In this document: one piece after another, positions 1 through 6,855 of the stretch
Layout of the letters: every line of letters starts with the position of its first letter
How positions within the stretch are numbered: position 1 is the stretch's first letter
NCBI GenBank assembly: GCA_002421565.1
Contig: DIKC01000048.1
Coordinates: forward strand, 1 to 10,114
From: Desulfobulbaceae bacterium UBA5628
Lineage (GTDB): Bacteria > Desulfobacterota > Desulfobulbia > Desulfobulbales > Desulfurivibrionaceae
Length of the DNA stretch: 10,114 bases
Reading direction: 5' to 3'
The notes under the pieces: generated by a model
Database searches by the model: none
The model's input: only the letters and a program-made list of their open reading frames with translations
What the model was told of the DNA's origin: nothing
Program-made: the position numbers and the translations under genes

Positions 1-412
1 CCCGGCAATGAAGAAGGTAGCGCAGGATCGGCAACTGGACCCAGGGGTTGACATGGCACTCGGAAGCGAGCCGGCCCTGGCGATCGATACTGAACTCCTT
101 GCCCAGACAGACCAGGATCAGCCGCTCCCCCACCAACCGGCCGCCGCTCCGCTCGGCGACTTGGGCAAAATCCAACTCCCGCACCTGCTCCTGCAAGCCG
201 GCCACCAGCTCCGCCTGCTCGTCGGCCAGGCTTCGGCGGGGAGCTAGCTCTCCGCCCAGGCCAGCCGCGCTTTCCCGATCCAGGGCCGGGCAGTCGGCCA
301 GCTTTTTTTCCCCCCGCAGCACTGCCGCCGCAAAGGCCAGGCAGGAAGGCAAATAGCACTGTCGGCAGTTGCTTTGGGGCAACAGCTTGTAAATGGTAAA
401 GAGATCAGCCAT
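1..412 (-). CDS. DUF3786 iron-sulfur protein, N-terminal 137 residues (runs off the left edge)
   Basis: The minus strand is open from an ATG at 412 to the window edge, giving 137 residues without a stop. Residues 1-41 form a small four-cysteine module with spacing C-x2-C-x4-C-x16-C (SNCRQCYLPSC, then ADCP), like the 4Fe-4S domain at the N-terminus of corrinoid/CO-dehydrogenase-type proteins. A linker rich in Ala, Glu and Leu follows. The visible end (GRLVGERL, GKEFSIDRQGRL, then HVNPWVQLPILRYLL) matches my memory of DUF3786, a domain common in anaerobic Desulfobacterota and of unknown biochemical role. The protein probably binds a 4Fe-4S cluster in the cytoplasm; nothing in the sequence gives a substrate. 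It is divergent from ald, with 65 bp between the two original start codons. The missing C-terminus would hold the rest of the DUF3786 domain. The family call is firm, the function unknown. Confidence 0.8.
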   Translation of the reverse strand, partial: MADLFTIYKLLPQSNCRQCYLPSCLAFAAAVLRGEKKLADCPALDRESAAGLGGELAPRRSLADEQAELVAGLQEQVRELDFAQVAERSGGRLVGERLILVCLGKEFSIDRQGRLASECHVNPWVQLPILRYLLHCR

Positions 413-477
413 AATCTTGCCATATTAACACAGCCGCTCCGGATTATGAATGAACAAAACCGCGGGAGTGAATGACG
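413..477. promoter_or_regulatory. Divergent intergenic region between the DUF3786 gene and the original ald start
   Basis: This 65-bp stretch separates two diverging start codons. On the minus strand a TG-T-TAATAT sequence (430-422) resembles an extended -10 box, but it lies only about 9 nt from the DUF3786 ATG, so a transcript from it would be nearly leaderless. On the plus strand TTAACA (425-430) is a possible -35, with no convincing -10 at normal spacing. GGGAG (464-468) is a good ribosome binding site 9 nt before the ATG at 478. I infer that this was the native ald promoter. It now reads into the truncated ald copy and the island. Confidence 0.4.
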
Positions 478-487
478 ATGATCATCG
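476..487. repeat. 12-bp perfect palindrome at the left end of the repeat
   Basis: CGATGATCATCG is its own reverse complement. It occupies exactly the first 12 bases of the direct repeat, covering the ald start codon. The same palindrome is at 4708-4719 in the right copy. The boundary of the duplication coincides with the edge of the palindrome. This could mark a recombination or cleavage site, or could simply reflect the codons ATG-ATC-ATC. Confidence 0.6.
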
Positions 488-540
488 GGGTACCCGGGGA
501 AATCAAGGATCATGAGTTTCGGGTGGGGTTGGTGCCGGCC
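476..540 (+). repeat. Left copy of the 65-bp direct repeat (ald 5' end) flanking the island
   Basis: These 65 bases match 4708-4772 at a constant offset of 4232 with no gaps. There are three substitutions: 492 A/G, 496 G/A and 529 T/C (left/right). Similarity stops abruptly on both sides: upstream of 476 and 4708, and after 540 and 4772, the sequences are unrelated. The repeat starts two bases before the ald ATG and spans the first 21 codons. Confidence 0.95.
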
Positions 541-558
541 CAAAAAACGCGCCCATAA
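478..558 (+). pseudogene. ald: Truncated 5' remnant of alanine dehydrogenase
   Basis: Starting at the ATG at 478 with GGGAG at 464-468 as ribosome binding site, the first 21 codons read MIIGVPGEIKDHEFRVGLVP plus Ala, the canonical Ald N-terminus. After 540 the sequence turns into island DNA. The frame continues for only five more codons (QKTRP) to a TAA at 556-558. Compared with the intact copy at 4710, two changes are synonymous (codons 5 and 18). One replaces Arg7 with Gly in the conserved PREIK segment, as expected for a copy no longer under selection. It may still be translated as a 26-residue leader peptide ahead of the island genes. Confidence 0.9.
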
Positions 559-572
559 CGCACAGATTTTTA

Positions 573-601
573 TTGACACGGTTGCCAATGAAAACTATCC
601 C
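573..601 (+). promoter_or_regulatory. Candidate sigma-70 promoter for the island operon
   Basis: A perfect -35 hexamer TTGACA (573-578) is followed, at the ideal 17-bp spacing, by TATCCC (596-601), a weak -10 box that keeps the important leading TA. It lies about 60 bp upstream of the methyltransferase start in AT-rich, non-coding sequence. The -35 is convincing, the -10 poor, so the promoter may be weak or need help. Confidence 0.45.
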
Positions 602-608
602 GTGATAG
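595..608. repeat. Small inverted repeat overlapping the candidate -10 box
   Basis: CTATC and GATAG are perfect inverted arms of 5 bp separated by CCGT. The element overlaps the -10 position of the candidate promoter, where an operator would be effective. Arms this short can occur by chance, and no regulator gene of the controller-protein type is visible in the island. Confidence 0.25.
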
Positions 609-661
609 CATCCTAGTGAACTGATTGTCCGTAATCTCTGCCAAAGTCGACCAAGGAAATA

Positions 662-3600
662 ATGAGCATTGCAACAGCGCATCAAACATTGTTGGCAAAA
701 CATGCTCACCCCCCGGAGGGGATGCATTTTTACGCATCGCCCGAAGAGATCACCATTGATCCGGATATCAGTGCTTATGCCCACCTTTTAAATCGAGCCT
801 GGGAAGACTTTCAGCTTGCCGGAGTCGTCTGTGTCGCCGGTATCCCAACCCTCTATCTCCGTTTTTTCTCCAAAATGCTCACACCGGAAGAGGCCGCCGA
901 ATGCCAACGGCAATTCTGGAACCAGGGCGTAGCAACAGTTCTTGTCTTGGTCGATCCCCAAAGTGTGCGCCTCTATTCCGGTCTGGCAACTCCGGCGAAA
1001 CCGGGGCAAGAGGAGCATGATCAAAGCCTGATCGAAGCCGTATCCCTGGCGGACTATTCCATCCGTATCCATGAAATTTATCACCAACTGGCCACGGGTC
1101 AGTATTACCGGAAACACCCTAAATTCGATGCAAAACAATCCGTTGACGCCTATCTGCTCAACAATCTGGCCGCTTTGCGCGACATTGTCACTGTCGGCCC
1201 CGATGGCCTGAGCAAATCCGAAGCCCACGCCTTTCTGGCCCGCGTCCTTTTTACCTGTTATTTGATTGACCGGGGTATTATCGACCTGGCCCACTACAAC
1301 TATTGCGCCTGTTCCCCCAGGGCAAAACTGGTTGACGTGCTGGAGCCGCTGAAGGGAAAAGAGGCCGCCGCCAAAAAAGTACTGTATCGGCTGTTTGATG
1401 ACCTCAAAGGGAAATTCAACGGCAGCATGTTCGATCAGAGCACCGAGGTTGAACGGGCTCGTATCCGAGACCGCCATATCGAACTCCTAGTGGATTTCTT
1501 GCGGGGCCACCAGGTAGAAAGCAGACAGCTCTCTCTTGGGTTCTGGGCCTACGATTTTCGGTGGATTCCGGTTGAAACCATCAGCGCCATCTATGAGGAG
1601 TTCCTTGCCGGGGAGGACCAGGAGGGCAAACACCAGTCCGGAGCCTTCTACACCCCGAGATTTCTGGCGGAAACGGTCATCGATGTTGCCGTTCAGGGAG
1701 ATCCGGCCTGGGACACGAAACGATACCTTGATCCGGCCTGTGGTTCCGGAATTTTTCTGGTCGCTCTGTTCAACCGCTTGGCGAGCCGCTGGCTGGCAAG
1801 CCATCCAAAACACACATACAAAGAAAAAGCCGATGCCCTGCTGGGGATCATGCGCGATCAACTGTGCGGCATCGATATTCATCCCACGGCCTGCCGTATC
1901 TCCTGTTTCAGTCTTTATCTGGCCTTCCTGGATCGTTTTGATCCCCGCGATATTGTCAGCTATGTGGAACGGACCGGTCGGAAACTACCCCGCATTCTGT
2001 TGAATGACGAAGATGCCACGCCCGAACCGGAGTTTCCTGTTATCAGGCGGGACAACTTTCTTGATCCTTCCCGGCTATTGGGGCGGTTCGCATTGGGGCG
2101 GTTCGGATATGTAATCGGCAATCCCCCCTGGCATGGACGAGGAAGCAAGCAGATCGCCCAGGATTTTGTACAAGCGATCCCGCAATATCTGGAATCGCAA
2201 GGAAGAGCTTGTGTCTTGCTGCCCGCCAAAATCCTCTTCAACCGAACGGCTAATAAATTTCAGCACCAATGGCTATCAACGGTCACCCTGGAAAAAGTCG
2301 TCCAGTTGGCGGATTACAGTTTTATCCTTTTTAAAAATGCGCTTTGCCCCAGTATTATCGCCCGATTCACCGCCGCGCCTCCGGAAATTGCCTCCCACCA
2401 AGTAGATTATGAAACCCCCAAGGTCAGGAAGATTGATTTTCGTAATGGCATAATCCCGGTCGCACCGGGAGACCGGAAGCGTATTGCGCTCCGTGAACTG
2501 CTGCATGATGCCAAAGCAAACAAAGCGTCTATCGTCTGGAAGCGGAATCTCTGGGGGACGCCCAAGGATAATGCCTTTTTGCGGCATCTGCTGGAAATGC
2601 CTTCTCTAGGCGATATAGCAGGCCCGCCGAGAGAAAAAAAACGCTGGATAAAGGGGCAAGGTTTTCAGCCAGAAACCAAGAAAGAGCGTTTGCAGCCCAA
2701 GCAACCGTGGTGGGGGCCGACAGATCTGTTTCTGGCGGCCAAAAAGGAGATACACGGGCTTTTTTTATTTTCTAGTGATTGCAATCCGATAGAAAATAGT
2801 TTCCCAAAACTACGTAGATCTCCAAACCGGAAAATATTTTCCCCACCGCTGGTTTTGATCAGCCAAGGAATTGGCAAAGGAGCCATGCCTAAAGTTGCTT
2901 ATTGCGACTTCCCAGTCCTTTTTCAACATGCTCTGCAATCCATTGCCGGACCCGCTAAAGACGAAAACCTTCTCCTCTTTTTGGCTTCGTATCTGCGATC
3001 AAAGTTAGCTCACTACTTCCTGTTCCATACATCTGCTAATTGGGGCACGGAACGGGATAGAGTCAACCTGGAGGAATTACTTCGTCTGCCTTTTCCGCTT
3101 CCCGGGACCGAGGAGGCACCACCTGACGCGGCGAAAATAGTTAGCGACGTTGCCCAAAAGGCGCGGGCGGTAAAGAAGAAAATTGAAGAGGACGCAAGAA
3201 ACACCCGCGTAGCCGGTGAGTTCCGCCTTACCGGCGAACGCCGGGAAAAATTGGCCGATCGCAGGCAAAAGATGGTTGAAGACTTGCAGGCCGAAGTTGA
3301 ACCGCTGATTTACCGGTACTTCGATCTCATCGAGCAGGAAATCATCCTGATTGAAGACACGGTGGAGATTTTCATCAAGAGCGCCACCCCGCACCGGCTG
3401 GAAACCCTCACTCCCGCCCAGGAATTCATTTACCAGAACAGCCTGCCGGTTTATCGGGCGGGGCTGGCCCCATATGCCGGGGCTATTGCCGGCACCCTGA
3501 ACGATTGGGCGGCGCGGATACCCGACTCAGTCCGGGTTACCCCCTTTGGCGCTATTGATAAATCGAGGGGTTTGGCGATGGTCAGACTTGAACTGACCGC

Positions 3601-3853
3601 AGACCCTCAACCGTTCAAGGAAGAAAAATTGGCCACCGGTCTGGCGGAGGCACTGGAACAGTTGCAGGATACCGCCCGCCAAGCGGCCGGGAGGCTTGAT
3701 TACTTGCGCGGGGTGATCTGGTTTGACGAATCGTCTATCCGGATCATCAAGCCGGCCACGGTGGAATATTGGACCAGAACCGCCGCCCTAAACGACGCGG
3801 CGGAGATTTACGCCCGGATTGCCAAAGCTCGCCAGGAAAAACGGAGGGGTTGA
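662..3853 (+). CDS. Eco57I-type N6-adenine DNA methyltransferase of a two-gene restriction-like module
   Basis: This 1063-residue protein should transfer a methyl group from S-adenosylmethionine to adenine N6 in a specific DNA site. In order it shows: an N-terminal domain (about 1-300) of unknown role; GAFYTP (327-332); the AdoMet-binding motif I DPACGSGIFL (357-366); an acidic GIDIHP (403-408); and the catalytic motif IV NPPW (487-490) in IGNPPW. A region at about 560-820 is probably the target-recognition domain. A charged helical segment follows (about 825-880, probably coiled coil), then a C-terminal domain. The order X, I, IV before the recognition domain is the gamma class used by Eco57I-like and type IIG enzymes. 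The N-terminus lacks a visible PD...(D/E)xK triad, so this is probably not a single-chain type IIG enzyme; the next gene supplies such a site. The start is supported by AAGGA at 653-657, slightly close to the ATG. PglX of BREX and DrmMI of DISARM are related methylases, but no BREX or DISARM partner is present here. Confidence 0.85.
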   Translation: MSIATAHQTLLAKHAHPPEGMHFYASPEEITIDPDISAYAHLLNRAWEDFQLAGVVCVAGIPTLYLRFFSKMLTPEEAAECQRQFWNQGVATVLVLVDPQSVRLYSGLATPAKPGQEEHDQSLIEAVSLADYSIRIHEIYHQLATGQYYRKHPKFDAKQSVDAYLLNNLAALRDIVTVGPDGLSKSEAHAFLARVLFTCYLIDRGIIDLAHYNYCACSPRAKLVDVLEPLKGKEAAAKKVLYRLFDDLKGKFNGSMFDQSTEVERARIRDRHIELLVDFLRGHQVESRQLSLGFWAYDFRWIPVETISAIYEEFLAGEDQEGKHQSGAFYTPRFLAETVIDVAVQGDPAWDTKRYLDPACGSGIFLVALFNRLASRWLASHPKHTYKEKADALLGIMRDQLCGIDIHPTACRISCFSLYLAFLDRFDPRDIVSYVERTGRKLPRILLNDEDATPEPEFPVIRRDNFLDPSRLLGRFALGRFGYVIGNPPWHGRGSKQIAQDFVQAIPQYLESQGRACVLLPAKILFNRTANKFQHQWLSTVTLEKVVQLADYSFILFKNALCPSIIARFTAAPPEIASHQVDYETPKVRKIDFRNGIIPVAPGDRKRIALRELLHDAKANKASIVWKRNLWGTPKDNAFLRHLLEMPSLGDIAGPPREKKRWIKGQGFQPETKKERLQPKQPWWGPTDLFLAAKKEIHGLFLFSSDCNPIENSFPKLRRSPNRKIFSPPLVLISQGIGKGAMPKVAYCDFPVLFQHALQSIAGPAKDENLLLFLASYLRSKLAHYFLFHTSANWGTERDRVNLEELLRLPFPLPGTEEAPPDAAKIVSDVAQKARAVKKKIEEDARNTRVAGEFRLTGERREKLADRRQKMVEDLQAEVEPLIYRYFDLIEQEIILIEDTVEIFIKSATPHRLETLTPAQEFIYQNSLPVYRAGLAPYAGAIAGTLNDWAARIPDSVRVTPFGAIDKSRGLAMVRLELTADPQPFKEEKLATGLAEALEQLQDTARQAAGRLDYLRGVIWFDESSIRIIKPATVEYWTRTAALNDAAEIYARIAKARQEKRRG
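3843..3847 (+). promoter_or_regulatory. Ribosome binding site that fixes the TTG start of the nuclease gene
   Basis: GGAGG at 3843-3847 lies inside the last codons of the methyltransferase gene, 7 nt before the TTG at 3855. It supports this TTG over an in-frame TTG at 3819, which has no such site and would place 36 bp of the gene deep inside the upstream reading frame. Confidence 0.75.
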
Positions 3854-3854
3854 T

Positions 3855-4475
3855 TTGGGCGCTGAGCAGGCCATTCCGCTTTTTCCCGCCGACGAAATAC
3901 CCTGGATTCTCGATACGGTGCTTTCTTGTGCCGGTGTGCTCCGTAAACGGCACGAAACAGAAAGGGAGGATGTGATTACCAACAGACTCTACAAGTTATT
4001 GAGAAAAGCGTTTCGCTCCGCCCCTTTTTCCCTTGCTCGGGAACATTCGGTTTTTGATGACAGCGACAAAGAGGGGGCAAGCGGCAGGATAGATATCAAT
4101 TTTATCTCTCCCCCCGGCGACGAAACCTATTTCGCTATTGAGGCCAAGCGTCTCCATGTAACCTTTCCGTCCGGCTGGCAATCTCTGGTTGGTGAATATA
4201 CCACCGGCGAACAAGGAATGATGTGCTTTGTCTCCGGCAAATACGCCCCTTTTCAGCGGGCGGCGGCCATGCTGGGATATGTCTTTGATGGTGATGTGGC
4301 GAAAGCCAGGGCCGGAATCTCAACCTCGGTCGACAATAACGCCGGGCGGTTGAAACTGGCGCCGCCTCATCGCTTGCAAAAATCCACGGTCCTGCCGGGC
4401 CAGGAGCTGGATGAAACGCGTCATAACCTGGACTCAAGAGAGTTCATCATCTATCACCTGCTGGTTTCCGTATGA
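3855..4475 (+). CDS. Small PD-(D/E)XK-fold nuclease, putative restriction partner of the methyltransferase
   Basis: A 206-residue protein starting at TTG, one base after the stop of the methyltransferase gene and with a strong GGAGG site, so the two are almost certainly translated in a coupled way. Its core is a textbook PD-(D/E)XK nuclease signature: GRIDI with Asp80, a 15-residue beta hairpin, then FAIEAKRL with Glu96 and Lys98, the metal-binding and catalytic residues. An upstream helix with Glu38 (REDVITNRLYKLL) fits the helix that often adds an acidic residue in this fold. Downstream, GEYTTGEQGMMCFVSGKY (113-130) probably forms the next core helix and strand. There is no signal peptide or membrane segment. 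I infer a DNA endonuclease that cuts unmethylated invading DNA under guidance of the neighbour's recognition domain. I do not recognise a named family, and a regulatory or repair nuclease cannot be excluded. Confidence 0.75.
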   Translation: MGAEQAIPLFPADEIPWILDTVLSCAGVLRKRHETEREDVITNRLYKLLRKAFRSAPFSLAREHSVFDDSDKEGASGRIDINFISPPGDETYFAIEAKRLHVTFPSGWQSLVGEYTTGEQGMMCFVSGKYAPFQRAAAMLGYVFDGDVAKARAGISTSVDNNAGRLKLAPPHRLQKSTVLPGQELDETRHNLDSREFIIYHLLVSV

Positions 4476-4585
4476 TGACGGAAATTTTTGCTTAGGGGTT
4501 TTCGCCATGCCGACACTGGAGTTCAAGGGCAAGCAGTTTGTTTATTCTCATCACCTGAGTGTTCCCTTTCGCGAGCTGAAGGTGA

Positions 4586-4699
4586 ATGCGAAAAAATCCC
4601 TGCTCGCCTCAACTGTGGGAGGAAGCGCAAGGAATGACGTTTATCCTGCTTATGGAAGACACTTGGAAAGACGACCTGGCAAAAGCCGGCGTTGCTTAG
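4586..4699 (+). pseudogene. Possible 3' end of a second lost gene at the deletion scar
   Basis: In the frame shifted by one from the Mod fragment, an open stretch of 37 codons ends SPQLWEEAQGMTFILLMEDT followed by WKDDLAKAGVA and a TAG at 4697-4699. The text after the loss of Mod similarity (about 4603) reads more like a real protein C-terminus in this frame than in the Mod frame. I infer an internal deletion that joined the Mod 5' end to the 3' end of a gene formerly downstream, perhaps the Res helicase-nuclease or the Mod C-terminus. The parent gene is not recognised, and a chance open frame cannot be ruled out. Confidence 0.3.
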
Positions 4700-4701
4700 G
4701 A
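4698..4701 (+). promoter_or_regulatory. Island-derived ribosome binding site of intact ald
   Basis: AGGA at 4698-4701 lies 8 nt before the ald ATG at 4710 and overlaps the TAG stop of the preceding remnant frame. It is not part of the repeat, since the native GGGAG stayed with the left copy at 464-468. The intact ald is thus translated from a site donated by island sequence. Confidence 0.6.
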
Positions 4702-4707
4702 CTGTTG

Positions 4708-4772
4708 CGATGATCATCGGGGTGCCCAGGGAAATCAAGGATCATGAGTTTCGGGTGGGGCTGGTGCCGGCC
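4708..4772 (+). repeat. Right copy of the 65-bp direct repeat (start of intact ald)
   Basis: Matches 476-540 in 62 of 65 positions without gaps and begins with the same 12-bp palindrome CGATGATCATCG (4708-4719). It covers the two bases before the ATG and the first 21 codons of the functional ald, and keeps the conserved Arg at codon 7. Confidence 0.95.
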
Positions 4773-5825
4773 GGGGCGCGGAGCCTAGTCGCAGGCGGCC
4801 ATCAAGTGGTGGTGGAGGCCGGGGCCGGGGCGGGCAGCGGCATCGGTGACGAGGATTACCGGGCGGCCGGGGCGGAAATCATGGCCGGAGCGGCCGAGGT
4901 GTACGGCCGGGCCGAAATGATCGTCAAGGTCAAGGAGCCGCTGCCCCCGGAATATCCTTATCTGCGGCCGGGGCTGATTATCTTTACCTATCTCCACCTG
5001 GCGCCGCTGCCGGAATTGACCAACGTGCTGCTGACCAGCGGGGTCACCGCCATTGCCTATGAAACCGTGGAAACGGCAGGGGGCCGGTTGCCCCTGCTGG
5101 CCCCGATGAGCCAGGTGGCCGGCCGGTTGGCGATCCAGGACGGAGCCCATTATCTGGAAAAGGAGCAGGGCGGGCGGGGGGTGCTGCTGGCCGGGGTGCC
5201 GGGAGTGGCGCCGGGCCGGGTGGCGATTCTCGGCAGCGGCACGGTGGCGGTCAACGCGGCCCAGATGGCGGTGGGGCTGGGGGCGGAAACCGCGATCATC
5301 GGCCGCAATCTTGCCAAAATGGCGGAACTGGACGCCCTCTTCCGGGGCCGTCCGCGGACCATCGCCGCCAATCCCCAGCATATCGAGGAACAAGTAATCC
5401 GGGCCGATCTGGTGATCGGGGCGGTGCTGTCGCCGGGGGCAGCGGCCCCCAAACTGATCAGCCGCGAACTGATCGCCAAAATGCAGCCCGGCGCGGTGCT
5501 GGTCGATGTCGCCATCGACCAGGGCGGCTGCGCGGAAACCTCCCGCCCCACCAGCCACTCGCAGCCGATCTTCACGGTGGACGGGGTGATTCACTATGGC
5601 GTCGCCAACATGCCGGGGGCGGTGCCCCGCACCTCCACCCTGGCCCTGACCAACGCCACCCTCCCCTATGTCCGCCGGCTTGCCGACCTCGGATTACCGG
5701 CGGCCCTCCGGCAAGATCCGGCCCTGGCCCGCGGCCTCAATGTGCTGGCCGGGGAACTTACCAACCAGCCGGTGGCCGAGGCCCAGGGGCTGCCCTGGCG
5801 GGAACCGGCCCTGGTCAGCGGCTAA
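4710..5825 (+). CDS. ald: Alanine dehydrogenase (NAD+)
   Basis: Catalyses reversible, NAD-dependent oxidative deamination of L-alanine to pyruvate and ammonium in the cytoplasm, linking amino-acid nitrogen with central carbon. From the ATG at 4710 the product has 371 residues, the family's normal length; a TTG at 4692 is rejected because the family begins MIIGVPREIK. Key residues are at canonical positions: Arg15 (EFRVGL), Lys75 (VKVKEP), His96 (TYLHLAP) and Asp270 (VDVAIDQGG). The Rossmann motif LGSGTVAVNAA starts at 174. The conserved SRPTSHSQP and HYGVANMPGAVPRTST stretches are intact. The gene is GC-rich like its right-hand neighbours. Its first 65 bases including the start codon are duplicated left of the island at 476. 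Its native promoter and ribosome binding site are now about 4.2 kb away, so expression must depend on island transcription or a new promoter. Its 3' end overlaps convergent selD by 11 nt. Confidence 0.95.
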   Translation: MIIGVPREIKDHEFRVGLVPAGARSLVAGGHQVVVEAGAGAGSGIGDEDYRAAGAEIMAGAAEVYGRAEMIVKVKEPLPPEYPYLRPGLIIFTYLHLAPLPELTNVLLTSGVTAIAYETVETAGGRLPLLAPMSQVAGRLAIQDGAHYLEKEQGGRGVLLAGVPGVAPGRVAILGSGTVAVNAAQMAVGLGAETAIIGRNLAKMAELDALFRGRPRTIAANPQHIEEQVIRADLVIGAVLSPGAAAPKLISRELIAKMQPGAVLVDVAIDQGGCAETSRPTSHSQPIFTVDGVIHYGVANMPGAVPRTSTLALTNATLPYVRRLADLGLPAALRQDPALARGLNVLAGELTNQPVAEAQGLPWREPALVSG

Positions 5826-6855
5826 GCCGGATGGTTCCGGCCGGACCGGCGACCACTTCGCCGATCACCCCGAAATTCAAGGAATAATTGCGTTTGCTCA
5901 GGCGGCCGACAATGGCCTCGATGGTGGCGGGCGGGGCGGCGATCAGGAGGCCGCCCGAGGTCTGGGGATCGTAGCAGACCATTTCCAGGGGATCGTTTTC
6001 CTCCAGTTCATTTTCCACGAACCGGCCATAAAATTCCCGGTTGTGGTGCGCCCCTTGCGGAATGATTCCCATCCCGGCGAAATGGAGGGTTTCCGGCAGG
6101 ATCGGCACGGCGGCGGCGGAGAGCCTGATCGCCACCCCGGAGGCGGCCGCCATTTCATGGAGATGGCCGAGCAGGCCGAAGCCGGTAATATCGGTGCAGG
6201 CATCAGGGCCATAGGTCATCATCACCTGGGCCGCCTCCTGATTGAGCATGGCCATCACCCGGCCGATCATCTCCTCGATCCCGTTGCCGGCCAAACCGCC
6301 CTTGATGGCAGTGGCGAGGATGCCGGTGCCCAGGGGTTTGGTAAGGAGCAAGCGGTCGCCGACCTTGGCCCCGGAGTTGAGCACCACCCGGTTGGGATGG
6401 ACCACCCCGGTGACCGAGAGGCCGTACTTGATCTCCTCGTCCTCGATCGAATGGCCGCCCACCAGCAACGCCCCCGCCTCCTTGAGGGCGTCGAGGCCGC
6501 CGCGGAGAATGTCGGTGAGTACCTCACAGGCCATCTTTTTGACCGGAAAGGCGACCAGATTCATCGCCAGCAACGGCTTGCCGCCCATGGCGTAAACGTC
6601 GCTCAAGGCGTTGGCCGCCGCAATCCGGCCGAAGCGGTAGGGATCATCGACAATCGGGGTGAAAAAATCCACCGTCTGGATCAGGGCGGTTTCGTCGTTG
6701 AGTCGATAAACCCCGGCGTCCTCACTGCCGCCGATGCCGGCGATGAGTTTGGGATCAGTGGGCAGGTTGAGGCCGCGCAAAATCCGGTCCAGGTCCCCCG
6801 GACCAAGCTTTGCCGCTCAACCGGCGGCTTTGCTGCGGCTGGTCAGACGGATCAT
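5815..6855 (-). CDS. selD: Selenide, water dikinase SelD with selenocysteine at the active site (in-frame TGA)
   Basis: SelD uses ATP and selenide to make selenophosphate, the selenium donor for selenocysteine-tRNA and selenouridine. Reading from the ATG at 6855 the protein begins MIRLTSRSKAAG, then TGA (6819-6817), then AAKLGPGDL. The TGA falls at the catalytic Cys/Sec position (Cys17 in E. coli), with the essential Lys three residues later (Lys16 here), so it is read as selenocysteine 13. With that recoding the product is 346 residues, normal for SelD. Other family hallmarks are SEDAGVY (44-50), TVDFFTPIVDDPYRFGRIAA (61-80), GGHS (133-136), TDITGFGLLGH (221-231) and a later PQTSGG. AGGAG lies about 6 nt before the ATG. 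The start overlaps the gpsA stop as ATGA, indicating coupled translation in the gyrA-gpsA-selD operon. Gene finders that stop at TGA would start the protein late, at the TTG at 6780, and lose the active site. Confidence 0.93.
6777..6819 (-). promoter_or_regulatory. Selenocysteine UGA codon and bacterial SECIS-like hairpin in selD
   Basis: The UGA is at 6819-6817. The next 17 nt form the left arm and loop approach, and bases 6813-6777 fold into a long stem: GCAAAGCUUGGUCC-type left arm, a 9-nt apical loop GGGGGACCU, and GGACCGGAUUUUGC as right arm. Pairing by hand gives 13 pairs (several G-U) with a single C/A mismatch. The 17-nt distance from UGA to the loop and the G at the loop start fit the published bacterial SECIS pattern as I remember it. 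A shorter alternative (GGUCC-GGG-GGACC) shares the same arm. It would bind SelB. Confidence 0.75.

Follow-up and report, generated by a model that had tools for sequence, protein, structure and literature searches.

A restriction-type island between two copies of the ald 5′ end in a Desulfobulbaceae draft genome, and the possible import of gene ends

Results

A methyltransferase and a nuclease lie between two copies of the ald 5′ end

We analysed the first 10,114 bases (hereafter the window) of the 16,519-base contig DIKC01000048.1 of Desulfobulbaceae bacterium UBA5628, a draft assembly of 197 contigs that is 60.7% complete. Within the window, two copies of the 5′ end of the alanine dehydrogenase gene ald enclose an island that holds a large N6-adenine methyltransferase (MT), a 206-aa nuclease (RE) and a 190-bp type III relic. 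All features of the island and its borders lie on the plus strand:

476..540, +, left (dead) copy of the ald 5′ end, 2 nt plus codons 1-21 (repeat search, codon comparison, flank identity)
542..616, +, headless open frame of 24 codons with a stop at its end (sequence)
662..3853, +, MT, 1063-aa N6-adenine methyltransferase with a type IIG-like profile (PF02384, 3e-12; PF07669, 1e-8; PDLC03623, 1e-68)
3855..4475, +, RE, 206-aa nuclease with invariant D80, E96 and K98 (comparison of relatives)
4507..4608, +, relic, codons 1-34 of a type III mod gene (PDLC03640, 5e-13, profile positions 1-34; three intact mod genes match at 85-88%)
4610..4699, +, relic, final ~29 codons with the stop of a type III res gene, in a different frame (64-72% to the ends of three res genes)
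4708..4772, +, right copy of the ald 5′ end, running on into the gene (repeat search, codon comparison)
4710..5825, +, intact ald, alanine dehydrogenase (TIGR00518, 4e-156)

An earlier note on this DNA had described a collinear 65-bp duplication with abrupt outer edges, and both observations were borne out. Repeat search and blastn of the window against itself (E = 1e-20) returned a gap-free direct repeat of 65 nt at 476-540 and 4708-4772, 62/65 identical (95%) at a spacing of 4232; the sole further self-match listed, 8233/8863, is only 66% identical. Identity over the 50 nt outside the repeat falls to 24% on the left and 20% on the right, so both edges are abrupt. The repeat comprises 2 nt ahead of the ald start codon and codons 1-21. 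Directly behind codon 21 the left copy gives way to unrelated DNA, and the right copy is, as the note had it, the start of a full ald of 371 codons (519.5 bits to TIGR00518). Codon comparison likewise reproduced the three reported differences, two synonymous, GTG/GTA (V) and CTG/TTG (L), and one non-synonymous, AGG/GGG (R right, G left); the longest exact run common to the two copies is 32 nt. Apart from the left piece (22 residues) and a partial match at 27%, the assembly has a single ald, of full length; a DNA-level search of the assembly with 400-700 did not bring up the repeat a third time. G+C content is about 0.48-0.57 within the island and 0.58-0.70 on its right side. The right copy, too, is preceded by a ribosome-site-like AGGA (4698-4701), which comes from the island side. 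An additional in-frame ATG (472-480) stands two codons ahead of the ald start at the left copy, outside the repeat.

The cargo upholds the description of the island as restriction-type, with MT (PF02384, PF07669, PDLC03623) and an RE bearing a PD-(D/E)XK signature between the ald copies. The MT motifs DPACGSG and NPPW are unchanged across 22 relatives. A PADLOC IIG profile matches MT, yet a separate nuclease gene adjoins it. In RE, the residues D...E-x-K lie on adjacent strands of the fold, as in PD-(D/E)XK nucleases. RE matched no profile in Pfam, NCBIfam or PADLOC, and it had zero matches in the phage collection and two weak ones among plasmids. Its 473 relatives carry no family name, a methyltransferase is linked to RE in 29 of 31 loci from named genomes, and these relatives are a candidate new restriction endonuclease family. 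The relic keeps the order of intact type III operons, mod start followed by res end, and the operon of one of the three compared res genes is typed as type III; the relic is not a working system because the middle of mod-res is missing. A search of 251 further genomes of the class with the 24-codon frame at 542-616 gave no match below E 0.036, and the frame is possibly the broken end of some gene.

The same architecture recurs at other genes

We looked for bracketing repeats at other MT-RE loci by comparing 4 kb on the left of each MT-RE pair with 4 kb on its right and taking the best direct repeat, with a cut-off of 60 bits. The sample of 33 comprised 31 MT-RE loci, the window and locus L046 (genome G126), of which 27 were usable after six with a flank of <60 nt had been dropped. 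Direct repeats of 62-293 nt and 84-98% identity bracket six of the 27 loci, or 5/26 without the window, which had been chosen for its repeat; these loci span Desulfobacterota, Verrucomicrobiota and Acidobacteria. Gene names at the relatives' loci are our reading of the translations:

Window: 65 nt, 95%; ald 5′ end
L046: 140 nt, 85%; mraY 3′ end
L060: 293 nt, 98%, at contig ends; part of a macB-like permease gene
L063: 161 nt, 96%; menB 3′ end
L065: 62 nt, 84%; piece ending in a stop codon
L069: 132 nt, 89%; pheT 3′ end

Two further loci were left out of the six, L067 (93 nt, 74%, seen only with 10-kb flanks) and L054 (41 nt, 83%). The copies are 4769 nt apart at L069 and 4622 nt apart at L065, barely more than MT plus RE. 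A reverse-complement (inverted-repeat) control gave 0/27 loci, and comparing left flanks with the right flanks of other loci gave 3/702 pairs at ≥50 bits (highest 133). For a random control, 20-kb stretches (n=20) were taken from four genomes belonging to the window's order; 8/1640 sliding pseudo-units were bracketed at 60 bits, all of them in 2/20 stretches, and the pairs listed were 60-70% identical.

This recurrence bears on whether the window might be an assembly chimera, in which contigs of two strains were joined through the ald repeat. The assembly is indeed a draft of 197 contigs, and a short k-mer could cross the 32-nt exact run. However, the junction at 540/541 shares nothing with the full ald, so that the joint of ald end and island must exist in some molecule, and the same architecture occurs in unrelated genomes. 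The RE protein also clusters with one on a 16,538-base contig, perhaps a second assembly of the 16,519-base contig. We regard a chimera as very improbable.

One repeat edge falls at a gene terminus, and no tyrosine integrase was found near the repeats

A gene end could be read and named in six cases (ald, menB in L063 and in L168, pheT, and mraY in L046 and in G122); in all of them, one edge of the repeat lies 0-8 nt from a start or stop codon, and the opposite edge is variable in position. Genome G122, related to G126, contributes a 98-nt duplicate of the mraY 3′ end (91.8%). Across loci, repeat lengths range over 62-345 nt.

The longest repeat belongs to an island with other cargo. In G266, a relative of L063, TerY and TerD lie in an island at the menB 3′ end (L168, 3813-12972) with a 345-nt, 98.6% repeat: different cargo, same architecture as the R-M (restriction-modification) islands. 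In the same genome, intact menB runs straight into what in L063 is the right-hand flank of the island, in one alignment of 1668 bp at 77.6%. For menB, G266 thus has the junction without the R-M island. In G295, the SNF2 gene of the L063 island sits directly after menB (84.5% over 1485 bp), and therefore part of that island occurs at the same site in another genome. Among 19 menB regions, as far as the stretches fetched reach, a second menB 3′ copy was present only in L168 and absent from 18/19; L063 is the other case. The corresponding empty site at ald was not seen among the genomes searched, which included none of the same genus; the nearest ald proteins elsewhere are only 70% identical.

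The earlier note had also stated that the island carries neither integrase nor transposase. This holds: none was found among its open reading frames and their families (open reading frame list, profile searches), and the tyrosine integrase family PF00589 had no match in the 16,519 bases of the window's contig. Integrase islands use gene ends and regenerate them, for example the dusA 5′ end, and the repeats could accordingly be attL and attR of a cis-mobilizable element whose integrase was lost or acts in trans. The different cargoes at the menB end (Ter genes, R-M) suit such a remnant, as do the PF00589 integrases present somewhere in 10/10 genomes searched. However, PF00589 was not found near any repeat, a search in which several contigs were short and serine recombinases were not covered as families; the only match on a repeat-bearing contig, in G126, is ~860 kb off. 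Nor would this explanation lead one to expect one R-M family at many different genes, or unequal repeats at a single gene (menB, 161 and 345 nt). Five islands compared had no end sequence in common and no convincing inverted ends (best local scores of 7-12 over 150 nt, with no shuffled baseline). An integrase remnant is, in our view, unlikely.

A head-to-tail joint of murD and mraY is as expected from a circle

Genome G126 carries two R-M systems in the order mraY, MT, RE, other genes, murD 5′ piece, mraY 3′ piece, second R-M system (PDLC03226 and PDLC03565), near-full-length murD. The murD 5′ piece thus stands head-to-tail with the mraY 3′ piece between the two systems, as expected if a ligated circle had integrated via a single crossover. 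A fragment [mraY end - R-M - murD start] would have circularised, and one recombination in murD would then give the observed order. Linear DNA that had been circularised by ligation is reported to integrate in E. coli through a RecA-dependent single crossover; in one class of clones, 56/60 carried a duplicated gene end (109-950 bp in the 14 sequenced) (PMC3240628).

The distance between mraY and murD varies among the six Electrothrix-genus genomes in which both genes were placed on the stretch fetched (0.8, 4.3, 7.1, 7.5, 8.7 and 11.5 kb); a duplicated mraY end is present in two of them (G122, G126). In three more genomes of the genus, either the stretch did not extend to murD or no match to it exceeded 45% identity. 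As a separate observation, the mraY-murD junction is an insertion hot spot in Electrothrix-type genomes (loci L046/L103, L232), with R-M genes in at least two (G124, G126).

Pooled differences between the copies favour an imported gene end

Counted as synonymous/non-synonymous, the differences between copies are 2/1 for ald, 5/1 for menB in L063, 3/2 for menB in G266, 10/5 for pheT, 4/3 for the macB-like gene and 6/2 for mraY of G122, giving 30 against 14 for the six repeats pooled; outside this count are L065 (5/5, gene frame doubtful) and L046 (gaps). Under neutral decay of a single dead copy, 26% of the differences should be synonymous (P = 8e-9); if both copies drift and the intact one is purged, the expectation is 42% (P = 3.5e-4). 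On this test, part of the divergence would predate the duplication. In pheT (L069), the base commoner among relatives is in the dead copy at 10/15 differing sites and in the intact one at 4/15, with one tie, as if the intact end were the newcomer. By codon usage the dead end there suits the host better, but the intact end is still inside the gene-body range. Among the matches listed, the left flank of L069 matches relatives mainly through the duplicated pheT segment itself. In L063, five synonymous differences fall in the first 24 of 161 nt.

These patterns separate two ways of arriving at the same architecture. The target might have been duplicated during insertion itself, with copies identical at birth, which is the published reading for R-M genes (PMC3874152). 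The variable repeat lengths agree with this, and the ald differences, like several of the amino-acid changes, suit decay of a dead copy. Duplication on insertion does not, however, predict the synonymous excess, the clustering in L063, the edges at gene termini or the murD/mraY joint, and we consider it possible but rather doubtful. Taken together, the pooled data speak for an imported gene end rather than for duplication on insertion, because of the synonymous excess, the edges at gene termini and the one head-to-tail joint.

For the window, we accordingly put forward that the island arrived carrying the ald 5′ end, so that the repeat would be an imported gene end and not a duplication made by an insertion enzyme; we judge the chances of this to be about evenly balanced. 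The incoming DNA would already have held an ald 5′ end beside restriction genes and would have recombined inside the resident ald, most simply by a single crossover of a circularised fragment. A complete ald would thereby have been rebuilt, its start from the island side and its body from the host, with the other 5′ end left behind as the dead 65-bp repeat. The cargo consists of MT and RE, presumably acting as a two-gene R-M unit, and a second system, type III and beside ald, would later have been reduced by deletion to the 190-bp relic. The 24-codon frame at 542-616 could, on the circle model, be the broken end of a donor gene.

Several points weigh against gene-end import. The synonymous test relies on a small number of pooled events and on a simple mutation model, neither copy at L060 is complete in view, and several amino-acid changes (menB) are clearly decay of the dead copy. 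In L063, there is one difference outside the first 24 nt, in 137 nt of sequence; a simple single crossover would not produce this from a donor that had diverged, so that either gene conversion or a donor nearly identical in that part is required. The two synonymous differences and one non-synonymous difference of ald could be explained by decay of the left copy alone; to the relatives' ald, the right copy is the nearer one in 15/29 loci (left, 2/29). Closeness to relatives is contradictory across loci, with the dead copy nearer at L069 (24/28; intact, 3) and the intact copy nearer at L063 (25/29) and L168 (24/29). Moreover, 21 of the 27 MT-RE loci are without a bracketing repeat, among them the mraY-site locus L053, and the circle itself was not seen.

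Of the two origins that the earlier note had offered for the ald differences, drift or another strain's ald, import is thus the better general reading from the six pooled repeats, and ald's own differences decide nothing. Its comparison of the island with insertion with long target duplication, which Nobusato (2000) and Furuta (2010) reportedly described for R-M genes, holds for the architecture, which fits and recurs in relatives, but the pooled repeats disfavour duplication by insertion as its cause. The island is a further case of this phenomenon, probably caused by the import of a gene end. A wider proposal, which we make tentatively and hold to be less probable than the import at ald, is that R-M islands and islands with other cargo (Ter) form a class of recombinase-free mobile DNA. 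Fragments with gene ends would circularise and enter by one crossover that regenerates the gene, the repeat would serve as homology for the next excision, and what is described as long target duplication of R-M genes would be the trace left by this cycle.

Neighbouring genes

Left of the repeat, an FeS / DUF3786 gene lies at 2..412 on the minus strand (Pfam PF04060, 4e-13; PF12654, 6e-9); it is cut off because the window starts at the contig end. In relatives' loci (n=29), the DUF3786 gene was not found within about 1.5 kb of ald. Right of ald, a minus-strand selD-like frame (5818-6855) has AIRS domains from 6780 down and apparently starts at 6855. Within its glycine/lysine-rich start is an in-frame TGA at 6819-6817, which may correspond to that of selenocysteine-containing SelD.

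Discussion

The movement of R-M genes without a transposase or integrase has been an open question from the time that H. pylori was found to carry long target duplications. The present R-M family, whose repeats occur at ald, menB, pheT, mraY and a macB-like gene and which spans three phyla, is a natural series for testing models. Duplication on insertion and gene-end import can be told apart by the differences they leave (random or synonymous), by whether edges lie at gene termini and by circular joints, and the choice between them is now testable in the laboratory. Carrying a gene end along may allow such islands to move without encoding a recombinase.

Our limited literature search found no report of the MT-RE family or of the gene-end argument. 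Long and variable target duplications around R-M genes are themselves established (PMC3874152, PMC1643837, PMC4978471). As far as those accounts go, the islands described here share with them R-M genes between direct repeats of ~100 bp and variable length without a known mobile element. They differ in the R-M family and in its occurrence in Desulfobacterota, Verrucomicrobiota and Acidobacteria, and here the edges at gene termini and the mostly synonymous differences point to an imported copy.

Cis-mobilizable elements and integrase islands likewise have direct repeats at gene ends and varied cargo at one site; the former derive from integrase elements, whereas no tyrosine integrase was found near the islands studied here. 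The E. coli H47 island is reported to be without its own recombinase, to have imperfect repeats of 148/144 bp and to be excised through them by host functions (PMC5426353). Our islands resemble it in having no recombinase of their own that we found and in their long imperfect direct repeats. The H47 island, however, carries microcin genes, and its excision, which is RecA-independent, was established experimentally. The integration of ligated circles in E. coli is similar in its duplicated gene ends, 109-950 bp there, and, as reported, in needing no special enzyme (PMC3240628); that system is a laboratory construct, whereas the island at ald is a natural one.

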